Positions 12,907 to 42,326 of a stretch of 64,000 nucleotides of DNA are shown piece after piece. The notes beneath the pieces were generated by a model. It did no database searches. It saw only the letters and a list, made by a program, of their open reading frames with translations, and was not told the DNA's origin. The stretch is from assembly GCA_041530395.1 (NCBI GenBank), contig CP136945.1, positions 1,426,001-1,490,000 of the forward strand. The letters are read 5' to 3'. Every line of letters begins with the position of its first letter. Within the stretch, counting starts at the first letter, position 1. The DNA comes from Thermosynechococcaceae cyanobacterium Okahandja. Lineage in GTDB: Bacteria > Cyanobacteriota > Cyanobacteriia > Thermosynechococcales > Thermosynechococcaceae. The translations under genes and the position numbers were made by a program.

Positions 12907-14118
12907 ATGAGATACACTAAAGCTATGAATCAAGTCCTGACTATCTCCTGCAAGCTAAAGGTATCCGAGTCGCAAGCCGCAAAACTGGATGCGACAGTGG
13001 ATGCATTTGCAAAGGCGTTGAACTGGGTAAACCAGAATACGCCACAGAAGATAGTCAATGCGGTCAAGCTGCAATCCCTTTGCTATCGCGAGATTCGCGC
13101 TCGGTTTGGCTTGTCGAGTAATTTGGCTCAGCAAGTTTGCCGTCGAGTTGCTGGGTCTCGTAAGGTGGCTAAGCAAAAACAACGCCCAGTCAAAGCATTC
13201 AAAACTGGCTTTGTTACCTATGACGCTCGCATCTTCTCCTTTCGTGAGCGGGACTGGACGGTCTCGCTCACTACCGTGGATGGTCGTGAGCGGTTTGAAC
13301 TGGCAATTGGTAACTACCAAAGAGGGATGCTAAAGGGATCTGCCCCTAAGTCTGCAACGCTGGTCAAGCGGCAAGACGGCTTCTACTACATCCAGATTTG
13401 CGTGGCGTCGGAACCGCCAACCCCGCAGGATAGCGATAGGGTTTTGGGTGTGGACTTAGGACGTACAGACATTGCACACACGTCGGAGGGACAACACTGG
13501 GATGGGCAAGACATAACCAAGGTTCGAGACCACTTTGCCAACTTGAGAGCCGCGCTCCAGCACAAAGCCAGTCAGGGCACACGCAGTTCGAGACGGAGAT
13601 GCCGTCAACTGCTGCAACGGCTGTCTGGCCGCGAGCAGCGGTTCCAAACATGGGTCAACCACAATGTTTCTCAACGCATCGTTGAAACCGCTAAGTCTCT
13701 TTCTGCCAGCATTGCCATTGAAGATTTGACGGGCATTCGAGAGCGTACCAACCAGCAGCCTCGCAGCAAAACGGAACGCAGACGCAGTAATAGTTGGGCG
13801 TTCCACCAGTTGAGGTTGTTTGTGGAGTACAAAGCTTTGGGAGCTGGGGTGAAGGTTTATGCCGTTAACCCCAGATACACGTCTCAAATGTGTCATCGAT
13901 GCCTGCACATTCATCCCGACCCCAACAAGTCCTATCGGAACGGTAAGCGATTTGAGTGCGGGCACTGTGGTTGGCAGGGTGATGCTGATTTTAACGGTGC
14001 GAAGAATATCGCTGCATTGGGGGCGCTTGTAAACCGCCCTAGAGGTTCGGGAGCAATGTCTTGTTCGTTGCAGGATGTTGTTCTCAGGGCTGCTGAAAGC
14101 CCGCTCCGTACCGCTTAG
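12907..14118 (+). CDS. tnpB: TnpB-family RNA-guided nuclease / IS1341-type transposase
   Basis: Complete 403-residue TnpB. RuvC residues are D183 in LGVDLGRTD, E272 in AIEDLTGIRER and D361 in GDADFNGAKNI, with the zinc ribbon CHRC...CGHC between the last two. The start may be ATG 12907 or ATG 12925 (MNQVLTISCKL). It differs clearly from the first TnpB in the window and so represents a separate element. No tnpA accompanies it. The 3' end runs through a strong hairpin shared with the neighbouring convergent gene, with which it overlaps by four bases. All catalytic residues are present, so it may be active. Confidence 0.92.
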   Translation: MRYTKAMNQVLTISCKLKVSESQAAKLDATVDAFAKALNWVNQNTPQKIVNAVKLQSLCYREIRARFGLSSNLAQQVCRRVAGSRKVAKQKQRPVKAFKTGFVTYDARIFSFRERDWTVSLTTVDGRERFELAIGNYQRGMLKGSAPKSATLVKRQDGFYYIQICVASEPPTPQDSDRVLGVDLGRTDIAHTSEGQHWDGQDITKVRDHFANLRAALQHKASQGTRSSRRRCRQLLQRLSGREQRFQTWVNHNVSQRIVETAKSLSASIAIEDLTGIRERTNQQPRSKTERRRSNSWAFHQLRLFVEYKALGAGVKVYAVNPRYTSQMCHRCLHIHPDPNKSYRNGKRFECGHCGWQGDADFNGAKNIAALGALVNRPRGSGAMSCSLQDVVLRAAESPLRTA

Positions 14119-17908: not shown

Positions 17909-18250
17909 ATGATTGATTCTCCCTCGTCTGAGTTACTCATTCATGTGGCGGACTACTTCAAGGTGCTCTCAGAGCCGAGTCGTCTGCAAGTGTTGTGCTC
18001 ATTGAAGGACGGGCGGCGCAATGTTTCTGAAATCATCCAAGACACGGGCCTTGGCCAAGCGAATGTGTCTAAGCACCTGAAGACCCTAGCTCAGGCAGGC
18101 TTAGTGCGACGCTATCCCCAAGGGGTTGCCGTCTATTACGAAATTGCCGACCCCACCATTTTCCCGCTGTGTGATCTGGTGTGCCGACGCTTAAAGCAAC
18201 GACTCGAAGAGCAATCGCAGGTTGTTAGCCAGTTAGTTGGTAATTTTTGA
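17909..18250 (+). CDS. ArsR-family winged-helix regulator
   Basis: A 113-residue winged-helix repressor: dimer helix LSEPSRLQVLC, recognition helix GQANVSKHLKTLAQAGLV and wing RYPQGVAVYYEI. The metal motif ELCVCDL of classical metal sensors is absent (NVSEI there). Instead Cys30 falls in RLQVLC, the position of the redox/sulfide-sensing Cys of BigR/SqrR-type regulators, and Cys88 and Cys92 lie in the last helix. So it may sense thiol redox state or reactive sulfur rather than metal; that is inference. The exported protein gene follows seven bases downstream, likely in the same operon. A TATAAT lies upstream. Confidence 0.85.
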   Translation: MIDSPSSELLIHVADYFKVLSEPSRLQVLCSLKDGRRNVSEIIQDTGLGQANVSKHLKTLAQAGLVRRYPQGVAVYYEIADPTIFPLCDLVCRRLKQRLEEQSQVVSQLVGNF

Positions 18251-18257
18251 GCCGACT

Positions 18258-18872
18258 ATGAAGCCGCATCCCTTGGTTAGTGTGTTTACTGTTGCGGCCC
18301 TGCTCTGTCTCAGCCAGCCTGCACGGGCAGATTCCCCCATTACCTCGACCCCGTTCCACCAAGCTTACAGCGACATAGAGATGGTTGACCAAGCCGCTCG
18401 CACCGGTCAGCTTGACCTTGGTATGGCAGAATGGCTCTCGTTAGATCAGGTGCCCCTAGATCAAAAAGCCGCGTTGGTCAATGCCCTTTCTTGGGATGTG
18501 AATGGCAAAACTAATGCCCAACGCTATCGCAGCTATCTAGCTCTTAAATATGGCGGTGATGTCGTTGATCCCCAAGTGCTGACAGCGGCAGAGTTGATGG
18601 TGCTTGGCTACCTCACGGTCATGGACAACTACTTTGAGCCGGAGCGGGGCATTGCCTACCTCAACGCTGCGCAAGAACGCGCACCCCAAAGCTACACGGT
18701 GGCGATCGTCCGCGGATTGATTTTAGCCCAGATGCAGTTTGGCCAAGACGGGTGCGCCCTTTGGGGCAGTGTGGCGGATGTTGAGCTCAATCGCTCTCTG
18801 CAACGGGATCTGCGACCTCAAGCGCGCCAAATTATCTTTGACTATATGCATCTGTACCGTAAGTACTGTTAA
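18258..18872 (+). CDS. Exported hypothetical protein
   Basis: From ATG 18258 the 204-residue product starts with a clear Sec signal peptide (VSVFTVAALLCLSQPARA, then DSP). The mature part is mainly helical and carries only two conserved-looking cysteines near the C terminus (DGCALWG and HLYRKYC). I do not recognise a family. Its position in the ArsR operon suggests it is controlled by that regulator. The start is chosen because the upstream TTG would place a charged segment before the signal peptide. The function remains unassigned. Confidence 0.75.
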   Translation: MKPHPLVSVFTVAALLCLSQPARADSPITSTPFHQAYSDIEMVDQAARTGQLDLGMAEWLSLDQVPLDQKAALVNALSWDVNGKTNAQRYRSYLALKYGGDVVDPQVLTAAELMVLGYLTVMDNYFEPERGIAYLNAAQERAPQSYTVAIVRGLILAQMQFGQDGCALWGSVADVELNRSLQRDLRPQARQIIFDYMHLYRKYC

Positions 18873-18987
18873 TCAGGCATAGTAACAATTCTTAACAAAA
18901 ACAAGGCGTTAGCGTTGGCGATCGCCCCGCATAGCTCACCGATTCTCCTTGGATTTTTAGATAGAGCACTACTCAGGAGAGTACACC

Positions 18988-19809
18988 ATGAATATGTATC
19001 AACGCAACTTTAGTACTGGTGGGCTGGAAGATTATACCTTTTTGCAGCTTTTTGTAGAAATTGACAATCAAATTAAAAAGCTTGAACATCTAGTTCGGTA
19101 TCATACAGGCGAGATGCCTAAATATAAACTCCTTAAGCTAGCAAAGGAATTGGGTTGGCAGATTCAGCAAGGTCGTGGGAAACATCCGACAAAGGCCGTT
19201 TGTGACGGTTTTAAGGTGCCAATTCCCGGCCATGGTAAAGGTGCCACTTTGCACCAAGGCTTGGTACATGATTTGCTCAAGCAGCTAACTGAACCCAAAT
19301 TAGCGGAACTACGACAGCAGAAGCAAGAGTATCTGAATCGTTTCTTGACATTGCTCAAAGATAAAGAACTGCAAAACTGTACTGTACAGTTAAACGAACA
19401 GCAAGAGCAGATTTATGACTTAATGAAGGAGGTTCAATCACTTAAGCAAGATATCAGTCAACTGCACATTCAACTGCATGAGGCTAACAATACAGCCAAT
19501 ACAGCAGAGGCACTTCTCCTTGAGCGGGAGCAGTACTGGAGTGAAATGACTCAAAAAGCCCGACTAGAGGCTCAAAAAAGTACTGAGCAGTACTTATACA
19601 GCCAGCTAGTGCTTGAAGATGTGCTTCAGGCTTTTCAGGAACTCCAAGACTGTTTTAGTAAAATTGATAACTACATACGGTCATTACCCCCACAGATCTG
19701 TGGGCCACTGCCAAAATATTTGGATGAAGTACATGCTATCTTTGCTCGGGACATTATTCTATTCCCTGCTAGTGAGCCTTTACAGGAGTTAGATGATGGG
19801 TCTGATTGA
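18988..19809 (+). CDS. HicA-like domain fused to a coiled coil
   Basis: A 273-residue protein. Residues about 45-95 (KLLKLAKELGWQIQQGRGKH, then KVPIPGHGKGATLHQGLV) fit the HicA fold: helix, strand with a glycine-rich turn and His, proline strand, and a closing helix. HicA toxins are small mRNA interferases with an active His at this site. After it comes a long coiled coil (about 105-220) and a C-terminal helical part. ATG 18988 has AGGAGA upstream. The gene is A+T-richer than its neighbours and contains no HIP1 octamer, suggesting horizontal acquisition. The next gene overlaps it by 17 bases, so translation is coupled. Confidence 0.7.
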   Translation: MNMYQRNFSTGGLEDYTFLQLFVEIDNQIKKLEHLVRYHTGEMPKYKLLKLAKELGWQIQQGRGKHPTKAVCDGFKVPIPGHGKGATLHQGLVHDLLKQLTEPKLAELRQQKQEYLNRFLTLLKDKELQNCTVQLNEQQEQIYDLMKEVQSLKQDISQLHIQLHEANNTANTAEALLLEREQYWSEMTQKARLEAQKSTEQYLYSQLVLEDVLQAFQELQDCFSKIDNYIRSLPPQICGPLPKYLDEVHAIFARDIILFPASEPLQELDDGSD

Positions 19810-20131
19810 GAGTTTGGAAACAGCTATTCGCGGCTCACGCCAAAGTTATGCAGAGCTATTAAAGGTAACCACTGATTTACTGTCAGAGCGAGAGCAACAA
19901 GGCTATCGCATTCCCCTGCGTGCTCAACCATGGACTGAGGCTCAACTCCGCAAAGGGTTTCCATCTTTTCGGGCGGCTCAGGCTTACTTTTACCAACGCT
20001 ATGGTGTGAAGGCAAAAGGCTGGCGCAACTTGCTAGAGCGGGTGAATGCAGTTGAGACGGCCTTGATTCACTTGGGGCTGGCAATTCGCGAAAATCCCAA
20101 GGCAAGGGCGATCGCGATTCGCAAGGGGTAA
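19793..20131 (+). CDS. Unrecognised partner protein of the HicA-like gene
   Basis: A 112-residue (or 111, from the second ATG) basic helical protein that begins inside the previous gene (17-base overlap), so the two are translationally coupled. No family is recognised. A motif PWTEAQLRKGFPSFRAAQAY followed by FYQRYGVKAKGWRNLL suggests a nucleic-acid-binding or protein-interaction domain. No HicB-like antitoxin features are seen, so it is not a standard HicA partner. The gene ends with a HIP1 octamer. Confidence 0.65.
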   Translation: MMGLIESLETAIRGSRQSYAELLKVTTDLLSEREQQGYRIPLRAQPWTEAQLRKGFPSFRAAQAYFYQRYGVKAKGWRNLLERVNAVETALIHLGLAIRENPKARAIAIRKG

Positions 20132-20158
20132 AGGCTAAGCTTAGATTAAGCCCTACTG

Positions 20159-22330
20159 TTACGCAGCAATGGCATGACTCAGGCGGCGCACATCCTGCAG
20201 GGCTTCCTTGGCCGACTCATAGCGATCGCTAAAGTTAAATTTCACCATTTTGTTCAGTACCGCCGCAAAGCCATCGCTGACGGTGACACAGGACTGCCAA
20301 TCCACTTCGCCGGTGCGCGGATCCCGGGGCAGATCCCGCGGCTTAATGCCTGTGAGGGCTTGCAACACAATCATGCCTACGGCATAAATATCACTGCTGA
20401 GGGTGGGTTGCCCAGATAACTGTTCAGGGGGGGCATAGCCCATGGTGCCAATGACAACGGTGCTGCCTTGGGTTTTCTCGACTTCTTGGGGCTGCATTTG
20501 TTTGACCGCGCCAAAGTCAATGAGCACTAACCGGCCATCCGCCGCACGGCGAATCATATTGTCGGGCTTAATATCACGGTGGATGACATAATGGCTGTGG
20601 ACAAAACTCAATACTTCTAGCATCTCTCGCAGCAGTTTGATGGCTTGGGCTTCCGTGTGCTTACGCTTGACCTCTTCGCTCAGGGATTGGCCATCAATAA
20701 ACTCTTGCACAAGGTAAAACTCCTGATTTTCTTCGACGTAGGCCAACAGGAGCGGAATTTGATCGTGGCGACCCAATTTTTCGAGGATTTCGGCTTCGGT
20801 ATTAAACAGCCGCCGCGCCACCTGCATAAAGCGTTCGTCATTGCGGCTAGGGCGCAAATGCTTCACCACACAAATGGGTTTGCCCGGGCGCTGGGTATCC
20901 TGCGCTAAATAGGTACGGCCAAAGCCGCCTGCCCCCAGCACTTTTTGGATTTTGTAGCGCCCGCCCAATAAGGATCGGGGTTTGCCGGTAATTTCTGTGG
21001 GTTGTTGCAGGGCTTCGTTTAGCGCCGCCGTGTTTTCTGCCATGAGCGATCGCATCAGGGCAAGGGCTTTTTCCTGCTCTTTAACTTTCTCTTGGAAGGA
21101 TTTTTGCTCCTGCTGGGCTTGATACCCCACGTAGCCCACCATACCCACACTGCTGAGGATCAGGGCAATCAGAGGCGGCACAACCGGAATCCAGCCATTG
21201 CCAAGAACAAAAACGGCAAAACCGCCCCCCAACAGGATAATGACACCAGCGCCGACTGCCGCCACTAACCACAGCGGCTGCCGCAACCACCAGCCCAAGG
21301 CACTACCGACCCCCGCCCACAGCAGGATCCATGCCAACACCAGGGGTAAGGGCCAGTACCAAATCGGCTCTTCGTTATCTAGGGCAGCACTGAGGAATTG
21401 ACTCACCATCTGGGCGTGGACAATAACACCCGGCATTTGCTGAGTAACGGCATCGCTGCCGCTGTAGGGGGTTAGGAAAATATCCTTGATACTGGGGGCA
21501 GACACCCCAATTAACACCACACGGTTGCGAATCAAGTCATCACTGACTCGACCGGTGAGTACATCCATCAACGAGACCGTGCGGCTGACACTACTGCCCG
21601 AGCGATACTTCAGTAGGGTTTGCATCCCGCGATCATCAACCCCCACATAGCCGCCAGCGTCCCGCGTGAGGGGCGCAAAGTGAACATTGTTAAGGGTGAG
21701 GCCATCATTCGTCAGATCAATCCGTTGATCCGGTTCCTGCTCGAGGTAGCGCAGCGCCAGCATTAGGGCAAAGGAGAAGGGGGTCGTACACCGCTGCGCA
21801 TTTTCATTGTTAATCACAAAGAGATTACGGCGGATAACGCCATCATTGTCGAGGGGAATATCGGCAAACCCCACGCGCTCTGGCACCTGCTCGGCGGGAA
21901 TACTGGGGGGCGGCGGCACCTCGGGTTGATCGGCGGTTTCGCCTGCGGACTTGCAGACGGGAATAATGCGCGGGTTGAGGCTCAAAATGTTGCGAATTTG
22001 CTCGTGACCGGGCGGTTGGGGAATATCCCGGAAAATATCTAGGCCAATGGCGCGTGGACTGGCGGCATTGAGGCGGGTCAAAAGGTCGGCAACGGTAGCA
22101 TCCGGTAGCGGCCATGTTTTCTGGGCTTGGATATCCTGCTCGGTCACTAAAACCGTGAGGATGCGCGGATCCGGCTCCGGTGCAGGGCGCGATCGCACGT
22201 AGAGATCGTAGAAATTCAATTCTGTTTGCTGCAACAGTCCTAACTGTCGCACCCCAATCACAAGAGCGGCAACGCTTAGGGTGGTGACAACGGCTGGCAG
22301 GGGCAGCCACTTGGGCCATGAACGGGTCAC
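20159..22330 (-). CDS. CHASE2-domain serine/threonine protein kinase
   Basis: A 723-residue transmembrane kinase. It starts with one membrane helix (VVTTLSVAALVIGVRQLGLL) and an extracytoplasmic CHASE2 sensor, then three membrane helices (about 335-400), a short coiled coil and a Hanks-type kinase. Kinase landmarks: GAGGFGRTYLA near 465, VVKHL, HRDIKPDN near 585 and DFGAVKQ near 607. All catalytic residues are present, so it should be active. A GTG start at 22330 leaves only seven residues before the membrane helix. It lies 19 bases downstream of a diguanylate cyclase gene on the same strand, so the two may form one signalling operon. The ligand is unknown. Confidence 0.92.
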   Translation of the reverse strand: MTRSWPKWLPLPAVVTTLSVAALVIGVRQLGLLQQTELNFYDLYVRSRPAPEPDPRILTVLVTEQDIQAQKTWPLPDATVADLLTRLNAASPRAIGLDIFRDIPQPPGHEQIRNILSLNPRIIPVCKSAGETADQPEVPPPPSIPAEQVPERVGFADIPLDNDGVIRRNLFVINNENAQRCTTPFSFALMLALRYLEQEPDQRIDLTNDGLTLNNVHFAPLTRDAGGYVGVDDRGMQTLLKYRSGSSVSRTVSLMDVLTGRVSDDLIRNRVVLIGVSAPSIKDIFLTPYSGSDAVTQQMPGVIVHAQMVSQFLSAALDNEEPIWYWPLPLVLAWILLWAGVGSALGWWLRQPLWLVAAVGAGVIILLGGGFAVFVLGNGWIPVVPPLIALILSSVGMVGYVGYQAQQEQKSFQEKVKEQEKALALMRSLMAENTAALNEALQQPTEITGKPRSLLGGRYKIQKVLGAGGFGRTYLAQDTQRPGKPICVVKHLRPSRNDERFMQVARRLFNTEAEILEKLGRHDQIPLLLAYVEENQEFYLVQEFIDGQSLSEEVKRKHTEAQAIKLLREMLEVLSFVHSHYVIHRDIKPDNMIRRAADGRLVLIDFGAVKQMQPQEVEKTQGSTVVIGTMGYAPPEQLSGQPTLSSDIYAVGMIVLQALTGIKPRDLPRDPRTGEVDWQSCVTVSDGFAAVLNKMVKFNFSDRYESAKEALQDVRRLSHAIAA

Positions 22331-40557: not shown

Positions 40558-41427
40558 ATGGGGGGTATGCGTGATAACCTCTGCAAATACCTCGCCGAAC
40601 AGTATCCCACTGCCTTTACCCAATGGCTCCTTAAGGATAGCTCCCCTCAGGTCTCTATTCTCAAAACCGAACTGAGCCTCGAACCCATTCGTGCCGATTC
40701 CGTCACCTTTGTCCAAACCCAAGACCGGATTCTGCACCTTGAATTTCAAGTGGAGCCGCAAACCGAGCCACCCCTCCCCCTCAGAATGCTCGACTATTGG
40801 GTACGACTGCAGCGCAAATACGCCTGCGAGATTGTCCAAGTGCTGATTTTGCTACGGCGCACAACCATTGACATCCCCACCGCCTTTGAAACCGAAACCA
40901 CCCTTCACCGCTATCGCGTCATTAAGTTGTGGGAAGAAGACCCCCAGCAATTTTTCAGTCATCCGGCACTGCTGCCCTTTGCCGTGCTAGCGCAGACCCG
41001 CAATAGCGAAGAACTACTGCGAGCTGTGGCAGAACGGGTGAATCAAATTGAGCCAGAGAGCGAGCGACGGGAGTTGAGTACCGTCGTACAACTAATGGCT
41101 GGGTTACAGTACAAAGAAGAGCTAATCGAGTCCATTTTTCGGGAGGGAATGATGCGGGAATCGGTGATGTATCAAAAAATCCTCAGAGAAGGAGAACAGA
41201 AAGGTCTCCAACGGGGATTGCAGCGAGGGCGACAAGAAGGACGACAGGAAGAAGCCTGCTCCCTCATCCTACGTCAATTGCATCGACGACTGGGGCATCT
41301 GCCGGATGAGGTTGTTTCTCAAATTCGTGACCTATCCCTTGAGCAACTCGAAACCTTAGGAGAAGCGCTCTTAGACTTTCAAACGCTGCCCGACCTAGAG
41401 GCATGGCTGAGAACTCGCCCTCAATAA
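40558..41427 (+). CDS. Rpn-family PD-(D/E)xK nuclease-like protein with DUF4351, copy 1
   Basis: A 289-residue member of the family annotated as recombination-promoting nuclease or putative transposase. The nuclease core shows the acid before VTFVQTQDRILHLEFQVE, with E-F-Q as the catalytic EXQ. A C-terminal DUF4351 (LILRQLHRRLGHLPDEVVSQ, LSLEQLETLGEALLDFQT) is joined by a basic, repetitive linker (GLQRGLQRGRQEGRQEE). The start is ATG 40558 or ATG 40567. It is nearly identical to the next gene. Known relatives promote RecA-independent recombination; the actual biological role here is unknown. Confidence 0.88.
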   Translation: MGGMRDNLCKYLAEQYPTAFTQWLLKDSSPQVSILKTELSLEPIRADSVTFVQTQDRILHLEFQVEPQTEPPLPLRMLDYWVRLQRKYACEIVQVLILLRRTTIDIPTAFETETTLHRYRVIKLWEEDPQQFFSHPALLPFAVLAQTRNSEELLRAVAERVNQIEPESERRELSTVVQLMAGLQYKEELIESIFREGMMRESVMYQKILREGEQKGLQRGLQRGRQEGRQEEACSLILRQLHRRLGHLPDEVVSQIRDLSLEQLETLGEALLDFQTLPDLEAWLRTRPQ

Positions 41428-41444
41428 ATAACGCACCCTCTAGG

Positions 41445-42326
41445 ATGGGGGGTATGCGTGATAACCTCTGCAAATACCTCGCCGAACAGTATCCCACTGC
41501 CTTTACCCAATGGCTCCTCAAGGATAGCTCCCCTCAGGTCTCTATTCTCAAAACCGAACTGAGCCTCGAACCCATTCGTGCCGATTCCGTCACCTTTGTC
41601 CAAACCCAAGACCGGATTCTGCACCTTGAATTTCAAGTGGAGCCGCAAACCGAGCCACCCCTCCCCCTCAGAATGCTCGACTATTGGGTACGACTGCAGC
41701 GCAAATATGCCTGCGAGATTGTCCAAGTGCTGATTTTGCTACGGCGCACAACCATTGACGTGCCCACCGCCTTTGAAACCGAAACCACCCTTCACCGCTA
41801 TCGCGTCATCAAGCTGTGGGAAGAAGACCCCCAGCAATTTTTCAGTCATCCGGCACTGTTACCCTTTGCCGTGTTAGGGCAGACCCGCAATAGTGAAGAA
41901 CTACTGCGAGCCGTGGCAGAACGGGTGAATCAAATTGAACCAGAGAGCGAGCGACGGGAGTTGAGTACCGTCGTGCAACTAATGGCTGGGTTACAGTACA
42001 AAGAAGAGCTAATCGAGTCCATTTTTCGGGAGGGAATGATGCGGGAATCGGTGATGTATCAAAAAATCCTCAGAGAAGGAGAGCAGCAAGGGCTGCAACG
42101 GGGACGAAAAGAAGGGGAGCGAATTGGGGAGCAGCGAGGACGACAAGAAGGGGAACTTACCCTCATCCTACGTCAATTGCATCGACGACTGGGACATCTA
42201 CCGGATGAGGTTGTTTCTCAAATTCGTGACCTATCCCTTGAGCAACTCGAAACCTTAGGAGAAGCGCTCTTAGACTTTCAAACGCTGCCCGACCTAGAAG
42301 CATGGCTGAGAATTCGCCCCCATTAA
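41445..42326 (+). CDS. Rpn-family PD-(D/E)xK nuclease-like protein with DUF4351, copy 2
   Basis: Duplicate of the preceding gene, 293 residues from ATG 41445. The first 220 residues are almost the same; the linker before DUF4351 differs (GLQRGRKEGERIGEQRG in place of GLQRGLQRGRQEG) and is four residues longer. All core residues (HLEFQVE) are kept. The linker difference suggests that repeat slippage, not random drift, is what has diverged. It could be expressed from the same transcript as copy 1, whose stop is 18 bases away. Confidence 0.88.
   Translation: MGGMRDNLCKYLAEQYPTAFTQWLLKDSSPQVSILKTELSLEPIRADSVTFVQTQDRILHLEFQVEPQTEPPLPLRMLDYWVRLQRKYACEIVQVLILLRRTTIDVPTAFETETTLHRYRVIKLWEEDPQQFFSHPALLPFAVLGQTRNSEELLRAVAERVNQIEPESERRELSTVVQLMAGLQYKEELIESIFREGMMRESVMYQKILREGEQQGLQRGRKEGERIGEQRGRQEGELTLILRQLHRRLGHLPDEVVSQIRDLSLEQLETLGEALLDFQTLPDLEAWLRIRPH

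Follow-up and report, generated by a model that had tools for sequence, protein, structure and literature searches.

A HicA-headed rod protein and its basic helical partner: a candidate mobile, head-swapping unit of cyanobacteria

The stretch of DNA analysed (64,000 nucleotides, hereafter the window) comes from a hot-spring-type cyanobacterium, whose genome of 2.8 Mb is assembled as one contig. Two overlapping genes, A and B, were found on its forward strand, with the following features.

18975..18979, forward strand: ribosome-binding site of A, AGGAG, 8 nt 5' of the ATG (sequence reading)
18988..19809, forward strand: gene A, HicA-headed helical-rod protein of 273 aa (open reading frame and translation; homologues at loci L047, L048, L002, L050, L003, L051 and L004)
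19114..19305, forward strand: HicA-like domain of A, residues ~43-106, alpha-beta-beta-beta-alpha, basic (Pfam and PHROG matches, AlphaFold topology, structural matches)
19183..19185, forward strand: codon of His66, equivalent of the toxicity-essential His24 of Burkholderia pseudomallei HicA (alignment)
19231..19233, forward strand: codon of His82, in a 'GH' that is invariant in 8/8 homologues (alignment)
19255..19683, forward strand: long helix of A, residues 90-232, running on from the last HicA helix (AlphaFold; coiled-coil-type matches)
19784..19788, forward strand: ribosome-binding site of B, AGGAG, within the 3' end of A (sequence reading)
19793..20131, forward strand: gene B, basic partner protein, calculated pI 10.4, 112 aa counted from the first ATG (open reading frame; likelier start at 19796)
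19925..20047, forward strand: core of B, residues ~45-85, three helices, motif LxxxF(G/P)Sxxx(A)xxYxxxYG(I/V/L)KxxxxW (alignments, AlphaFold)

The preliminary description of this locus gave a 17-base overlap of the two reading frames, which is what is obtained when B starts at its first ATG, 19793. However, the N-terminus of the B homologues was found to align as MGL, and the AGGAG at 19784-19788 lies 7 nt 5' of the second ATG (19796), a better spacing than for the first. Both observations suggest that the true start of B is probably 19796 and the overlap 14 bases. At each of the eight homologous junctions, the B start was preceded by a G/A-rich stretch resembling a ribosome-binding site, placed within the last part of A or immediately 3' of it. 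Together with the overlapping frames, this makes translational coupling of A and B plausible, in agreement with the coupling proposed earlier. A scan of the locus for promoters, terminators and repeats gave nothing exceeding chance, and operator-like repeats were absent.

The N-terminal part of A was assigned to HicA from several comparisons. Pfam HicA_toxin (PF07927) matched residues 47-100 with E=0.0024 and a score of 18.4 bits, under Pfam's curated cut-off of 27, and PHROG 353, annotated 'toxin', matched with E=1e-4. When the eight A homologues were scanned singly, HicA_toxin was detected in seven (best E 1.9e-5). The AlphaFold model of A, made from a shallow alignment, had a mean pLDDT of 82 and consisted of a helix at residues 12-38, a helix at 45-54, strands at 58-60, 68-72 and 75-79, and a helix at 90-232. 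In Foldseek the model gave a TMt of 0.80 to 5yrz_B and 0.76 to 6g26_F. In VIA, residues 38-106 superposed on the HicA chains of 1whz, 6g26, 5yrz and 6hpb with Z scores of 7.3-8.0, although values near 8 may reflect merely a common arrangement; the rmsd in the Foldseek and VIA superpositions was 1.8-2.9 Å. No HicA was retrieved when the N-terminus of A was compared with PDB sequences by phmmer, so the assignment depends on the Pfam profiles and on structure. Since the sequence profile, the topology and four HicA chains agree, homology of the A head to HicA is firm, and the HicA-like fold noticed earlier is borne out.

The His of the GRGKH motif, singled out in the preliminary description, is His66. 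It aligns, together with Gly64, with His24 and Gly22 in the beta1-beta2 turn of B. pseudomallei HicA, where both residues are required for toxicity and the H24A variant is non-toxic (PMC3969222). This His was kept in five of the eight HicA-headed proteins (the window, G402, G403, G177 and G400) and was replaced by Asp, Glu and Glu, respectively, in the other three (G280, G399 and G036). The identity of A to its homologues was 30-52% in the head compared to 18-25% in the rod. The head is thus the best conserved part of A and also the most basic, with a pI of 9.9-11.2 in 7/8 members. A conserved basic head with a variable His fits a retained RNA-binding head for which catalysis would be optional. 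A toxin role is possible for the A protein of the window, in which His66 is present.

In the AlphaFold model the last helix of the HicA domain extends into a helix of ~140 residues, with pLDDT values per block of mostly 85-97 over residues 90-230. Coiled-coil-type matches to A were obtained in several profile libraries. The 110-residue coiled coil described previously is predicted as one long helix, but sharp 3.5-residue periodicity was absent from the A of the window; it was present in several homologues.

The AlphaFold model of B was all-helical with a confident three-helix core (pLDDT >87 over residues 51-90), in which Trp77 is near-invariant in the family alignments. Searches of Pfam, NCBIfam, PADLOC and PHROGs gave no meaningful family match for B and no HicB family, and the earlier statement that B is not a HicB was thus confirmed. 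No match to B was found in the PDB, either by fold or by profile. HNH_repeat (PF18780) weakly matched the core in 2 of 24 members of the B family (best E 0.0023), and the B of the window was unmatched. As a PDB match is lacking, a role of B in nucleic-acid binding depends on its charge and on these weak HNH_repeat/NUMOD1 matches. A B profile search found relatives in 21 of 386 sampled cyanobacterial genomes, and in 34 after the profile was enlarged, the weakest matches (E above about 1e-4) including likely chance matches. Members of the family occurred in 29 of the 142 genera sampled; judged from these sequence comparisons, the family is unannotated and undescribed in cyanobacteria.

Two unusual proteins were observed in the course of these searches. 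One, at L090 1778-2950 (G036), is an RNase Z-like protein with a C-terminal domain resembling the B core (E 4.6e-5). A second clear fusion of this kind was not found in the 146 genomes searched, and the fusion was dropped as functional evidence because it occurs in G036 alone. The other, at L089 1984-3276 (G095), is a predicted membrane/coiled protein of 430 aa in which the B core motif appears to recur several times.

When 33 A-B pairs were compared, the two genes ran in the same direction with the A-type gene first; in 32 pairs they overlapped or were separated by no more than 53 bp, and in the remaining pair the distance was 447 bp. Only eight of the A partners had a HicA head. The rest carried other N-termini of at least three kinds, 'PDD..LQ..IKSLRRSRG', 'R(F/S)xS(A/T)(S/x)(E/D)FP' and 'RRADRRDS'. 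Most non-HicA rods (L009, L010, L017, L018, L024, L025, L026, L030, L031 and L088) had in common a C-terminal '(P)QM..DxASIGRSLLDK', possibly a docking peptide, which neither the HicA-type nor the RRAD-type rods possess. A tree of B was built by maximum likelihood. Seven of the B proteins paired with HicA-headed rods formed one clade in it (support 93/83), and the eighth, from G036, was placed with the partners of the 'SEFP' type (support 96/95). G036 carries a HicA-type pair and a separate, non-HicA 'SEFP' pair. The presence of HicA heads on two B lineages, along with several other heads, supports exchange of the N-terminal head between A proteins, and because the branches of the B tree are long this exchange is supported rather than proven.

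Within the genus of the window, B was found in 5 of 11 genomes by direct search. The A-B unit occupied differing loci in G000, G402 and G403. G405 and G408 shared another site, where A was gone and B was either intact, with Trp77 changed to Phe, or truncated (L049 1100-1830 and L052 7850-8440). At the site of the window, four relatives had an ArsR gene, pyrG, a feoA-like gene and a CHASE2-type kinase gene in this order; in the window, pyrG-feoA was replaced by a 211-codon ORF and A-B (18237-20160). Moreover, the B of G402 was nearer in the tree to that of G177, from another family, than to that of the window (support 94/71). The GC content of A was 0.42, the lowest among the 56 ORFs of the window and four standard deviations below their mean (0.557, sd 0.034), in accordance with the A+T-rich composition noted before. 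Taken together, the differing loci, the replaced pyrG-feoA, the placement in the B tree and the low GC of A support acquisition or relocation of the unit. Acquisition had been proposed earlier partly because A lacks HIP1 sites. This argument was rejected as uninformative: the chance of finding none in 822 bp was 0.35, and among 28 ORFs comparable in length, 8 had no site. No match to A or B was found by tblastn in plasmid and phage collections. Genome contigs scanned with either protein, and viral contigs scanned with B, yielded no confirmed relative; these scans need short conserved peptides and have little sensitivity for distant relatives.

A survey of the neighbourhoods of orthologues, as suggested in the preliminary description, showed mainly housekeeping genes around 7 of the 8 HicA-type pairs. 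In G399 (L051, contig 11, 2407-7774), the HicA-rod/B pair was followed after a gap of 26 bp by Cas10/Cmr2 on the same strand and then by a RAMP gene. A gene for Cas_APE2256 is located farther along; these are type III CRISPR genes. In G318 and G272 (L085 and L086), a nuclease-type ORF was located within about 4 bp behind a 'SEFP'-type B; it matched RNase_H_2 in L086 and was truncated in L085, with HsdM next to it. A link with defence is suggested solely from G399 (Cas10 and RAMP after B) and from G318 and G272 (nuclease- and HsdM-type genes). As a separate observation, large membrane proteins at L018 2187-3365 and L051 9139-10485, similar as judged by eye, are located near a non-HicA-type and a HicA-type A-B pair, respectively, in different families. 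Elsewhere in the window, TnpB-like ORFs at 1-1224 and 12907-14118 suggest IS200/IS605-type elements, and two tandem near-identical ORFs at 40558-41427 and 41403-42326 ('MGGMRDNLCKYLAEQYPTAFTQWLLKD...') represent a recent duplication.

The reading that we prefer, with a confidence that does not go beyond an even chance, is that the locus is the HicA-headed version of an undescribed, mobile, head-swapping cyanobacterial rod-plus-B unit, which would act as a scaffold or effector with an RNA-binding HicA head and not as a standard HicAB. The rod-forming A protein would oligomerise, and B, a small basic three-helix protein, would bind the rod or nucleic acid. Judging from its fold and charge, the HicA-derived, dsRBD-like head would allow the complex to bind structured RNA, and members that keep the His, the A of the window among them, may also cut it. 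The different positions of the unit and the interrupted synteny at the present site show that it moves between genomes and sites. An exchangeable N-terminal head is supported by the association of HicA heads with two lineages of B and by the existence of several other heads. In this way a scaffold or effector complex would employ the HicA fold as its RNA-binding part. The preliminary description had offered a toxin-antitoxin or defence module and a housekeeping RNA-binding pair as the two alternatives. The evidence leans to the RNA-binding pair, because the B family is found mostly with non-HicA rods and the His is lost in 3/8 HicA-headed proteins, and the pair appears to be accessory and mobile rather than housekeeping.

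Several observations count against a scaffold. The HicA fold and the catalytic-type His are kept in 5/8 members including that of the window, as expected of an active toxin, and the branches of the B tree are long. The gene overlap, the patchy distribution and the retention of B without A in G405 (in G408 what is left of B is shorter) are also in line with a toxin-antitoxin system. It is possible, at clearly less than even probability, that A is an RNase toxin whose HicA active site is carried on a rod and that B is a non-HicB antitoxin, which would make the pair a toxin-antitoxin or abortive-infection module of a new kind. The presence of His66 and Gly64, which correspond to two toxicity-essential residues, would then be accounted for, as would the coupled genes, the low GC of a mobile unit and the type III CRISPR genes 26 bp behind the G399 pair. 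However, B pairs mostly with proteins that have no HicA, the His is not universal even among the HicA-headed proteins, housekeeping genes dominate nearly all the HicA-pair neighbourhoods, and relatives were not found in the phage or plasmid collections. Absence of the His in some members would also fit a structural, filament-forming coiled-coil duo like ZicK/ZacK, in which the HicA head would be a degenerate part for oligomerisation or positioning with no RNA function. Long-helix A proteins nearly always adjoin B, heads are swapped between them, and two-gene coiled-coil heteropolymers have been described in Anabaena (PMC7766704). Nevertheless, the conservation of the HicA head and its basic character go beyond the needs of an inert head, and we regard this explanation as quite improbable. 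An unlikely, though somewhat less improbable, proposal is that mobile rod-plus-B units with interchangeable heads form an undescribed class in which the HicA head of the His-bearing members is an RNA-cleaving anti-phage or stress effector, restrained by assembly with B.

If the preferred scaffold or effector reading is correct, a toxin fold has been reused outside a toxin-antitoxin setting as a swappable scaffold head, with the catalytic residue gone in several members. The analysis brings to light the partner family B, nearly always beside a rod protein, and offers a tractable case in which to study how RNases of toxin systems turn into RNA-binding parts, or how toxins gain new antitoxins.

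The A-B unit was compared with HicA toxins (PF07927; those of Escherichia coli, B. pseudomallei, Streptococcus pneumoniae and Thermus thermophilus TTHA1913). In contrast to these single-domain proteins of 50-100 aa, A is 273 aa long and has two additional helices, one N-terminal and the long C-terminal one; it scores below the curated cut-off, and the key His is not conserved across its family, although the A of the window does carry Gly64 and His66. A profile of four A homologues, when run over the 386 genomes, also retrieved short frames of 78-83 aa. Three that were inspected resemble ordinary HicA with GSH motifs, and two of them adjoin HicB-like genes. The genome of the window itself has two stronger HicA matches elsewhere, one of them, at 84 kb, beside a HicB-like gene. 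Unlike type II HicAB systems, the A-B unit has no adjacent HicB, and its partner is the predicted all-helical B. A published survey distinguishes 14 classes of HicA context (Gerdes 2024, PMC10865869), none of which combines a helical rod bearing HicA at its N-terminus with a partner other than HicB. In Class 14, SMC-HicA, a HicA domain is likewise fused to a coiled-coil protein. There, however, HicA forms the C-terminal part of an SMC ATPase, whereas A carries it in its N-terminal part and lacks an ATPase domain; the dedicated partner B is a further difference. ZicK and ZacK of Anabaena are two-gene, interdependent, coiled-coil-rich proteins that form heteropolymers (PMC7766704). They are likewise a cyanobacterial coiled-coil-rich pair, likened here by description and not by sequence, and no HicA domain has been reported in them. 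Their locus numbers are presumably alr4504 and alr4505. Small DNA-binding modules of the HNH_repeat (PF18780)/NUMOD1 type resemble the core of two B relatives at the weak level given above; they do not match the B of the window, which has no endonuclease. In the literature searched, no paper on the HicA-rod and B combination was found. Since this architecture is absent from the 14 published classes, the earlier view that the combination lies outside standard HicAB systems holds: A-B is a new variant in architecture, built on a HicA-fold protein, and not a member of HicAB.
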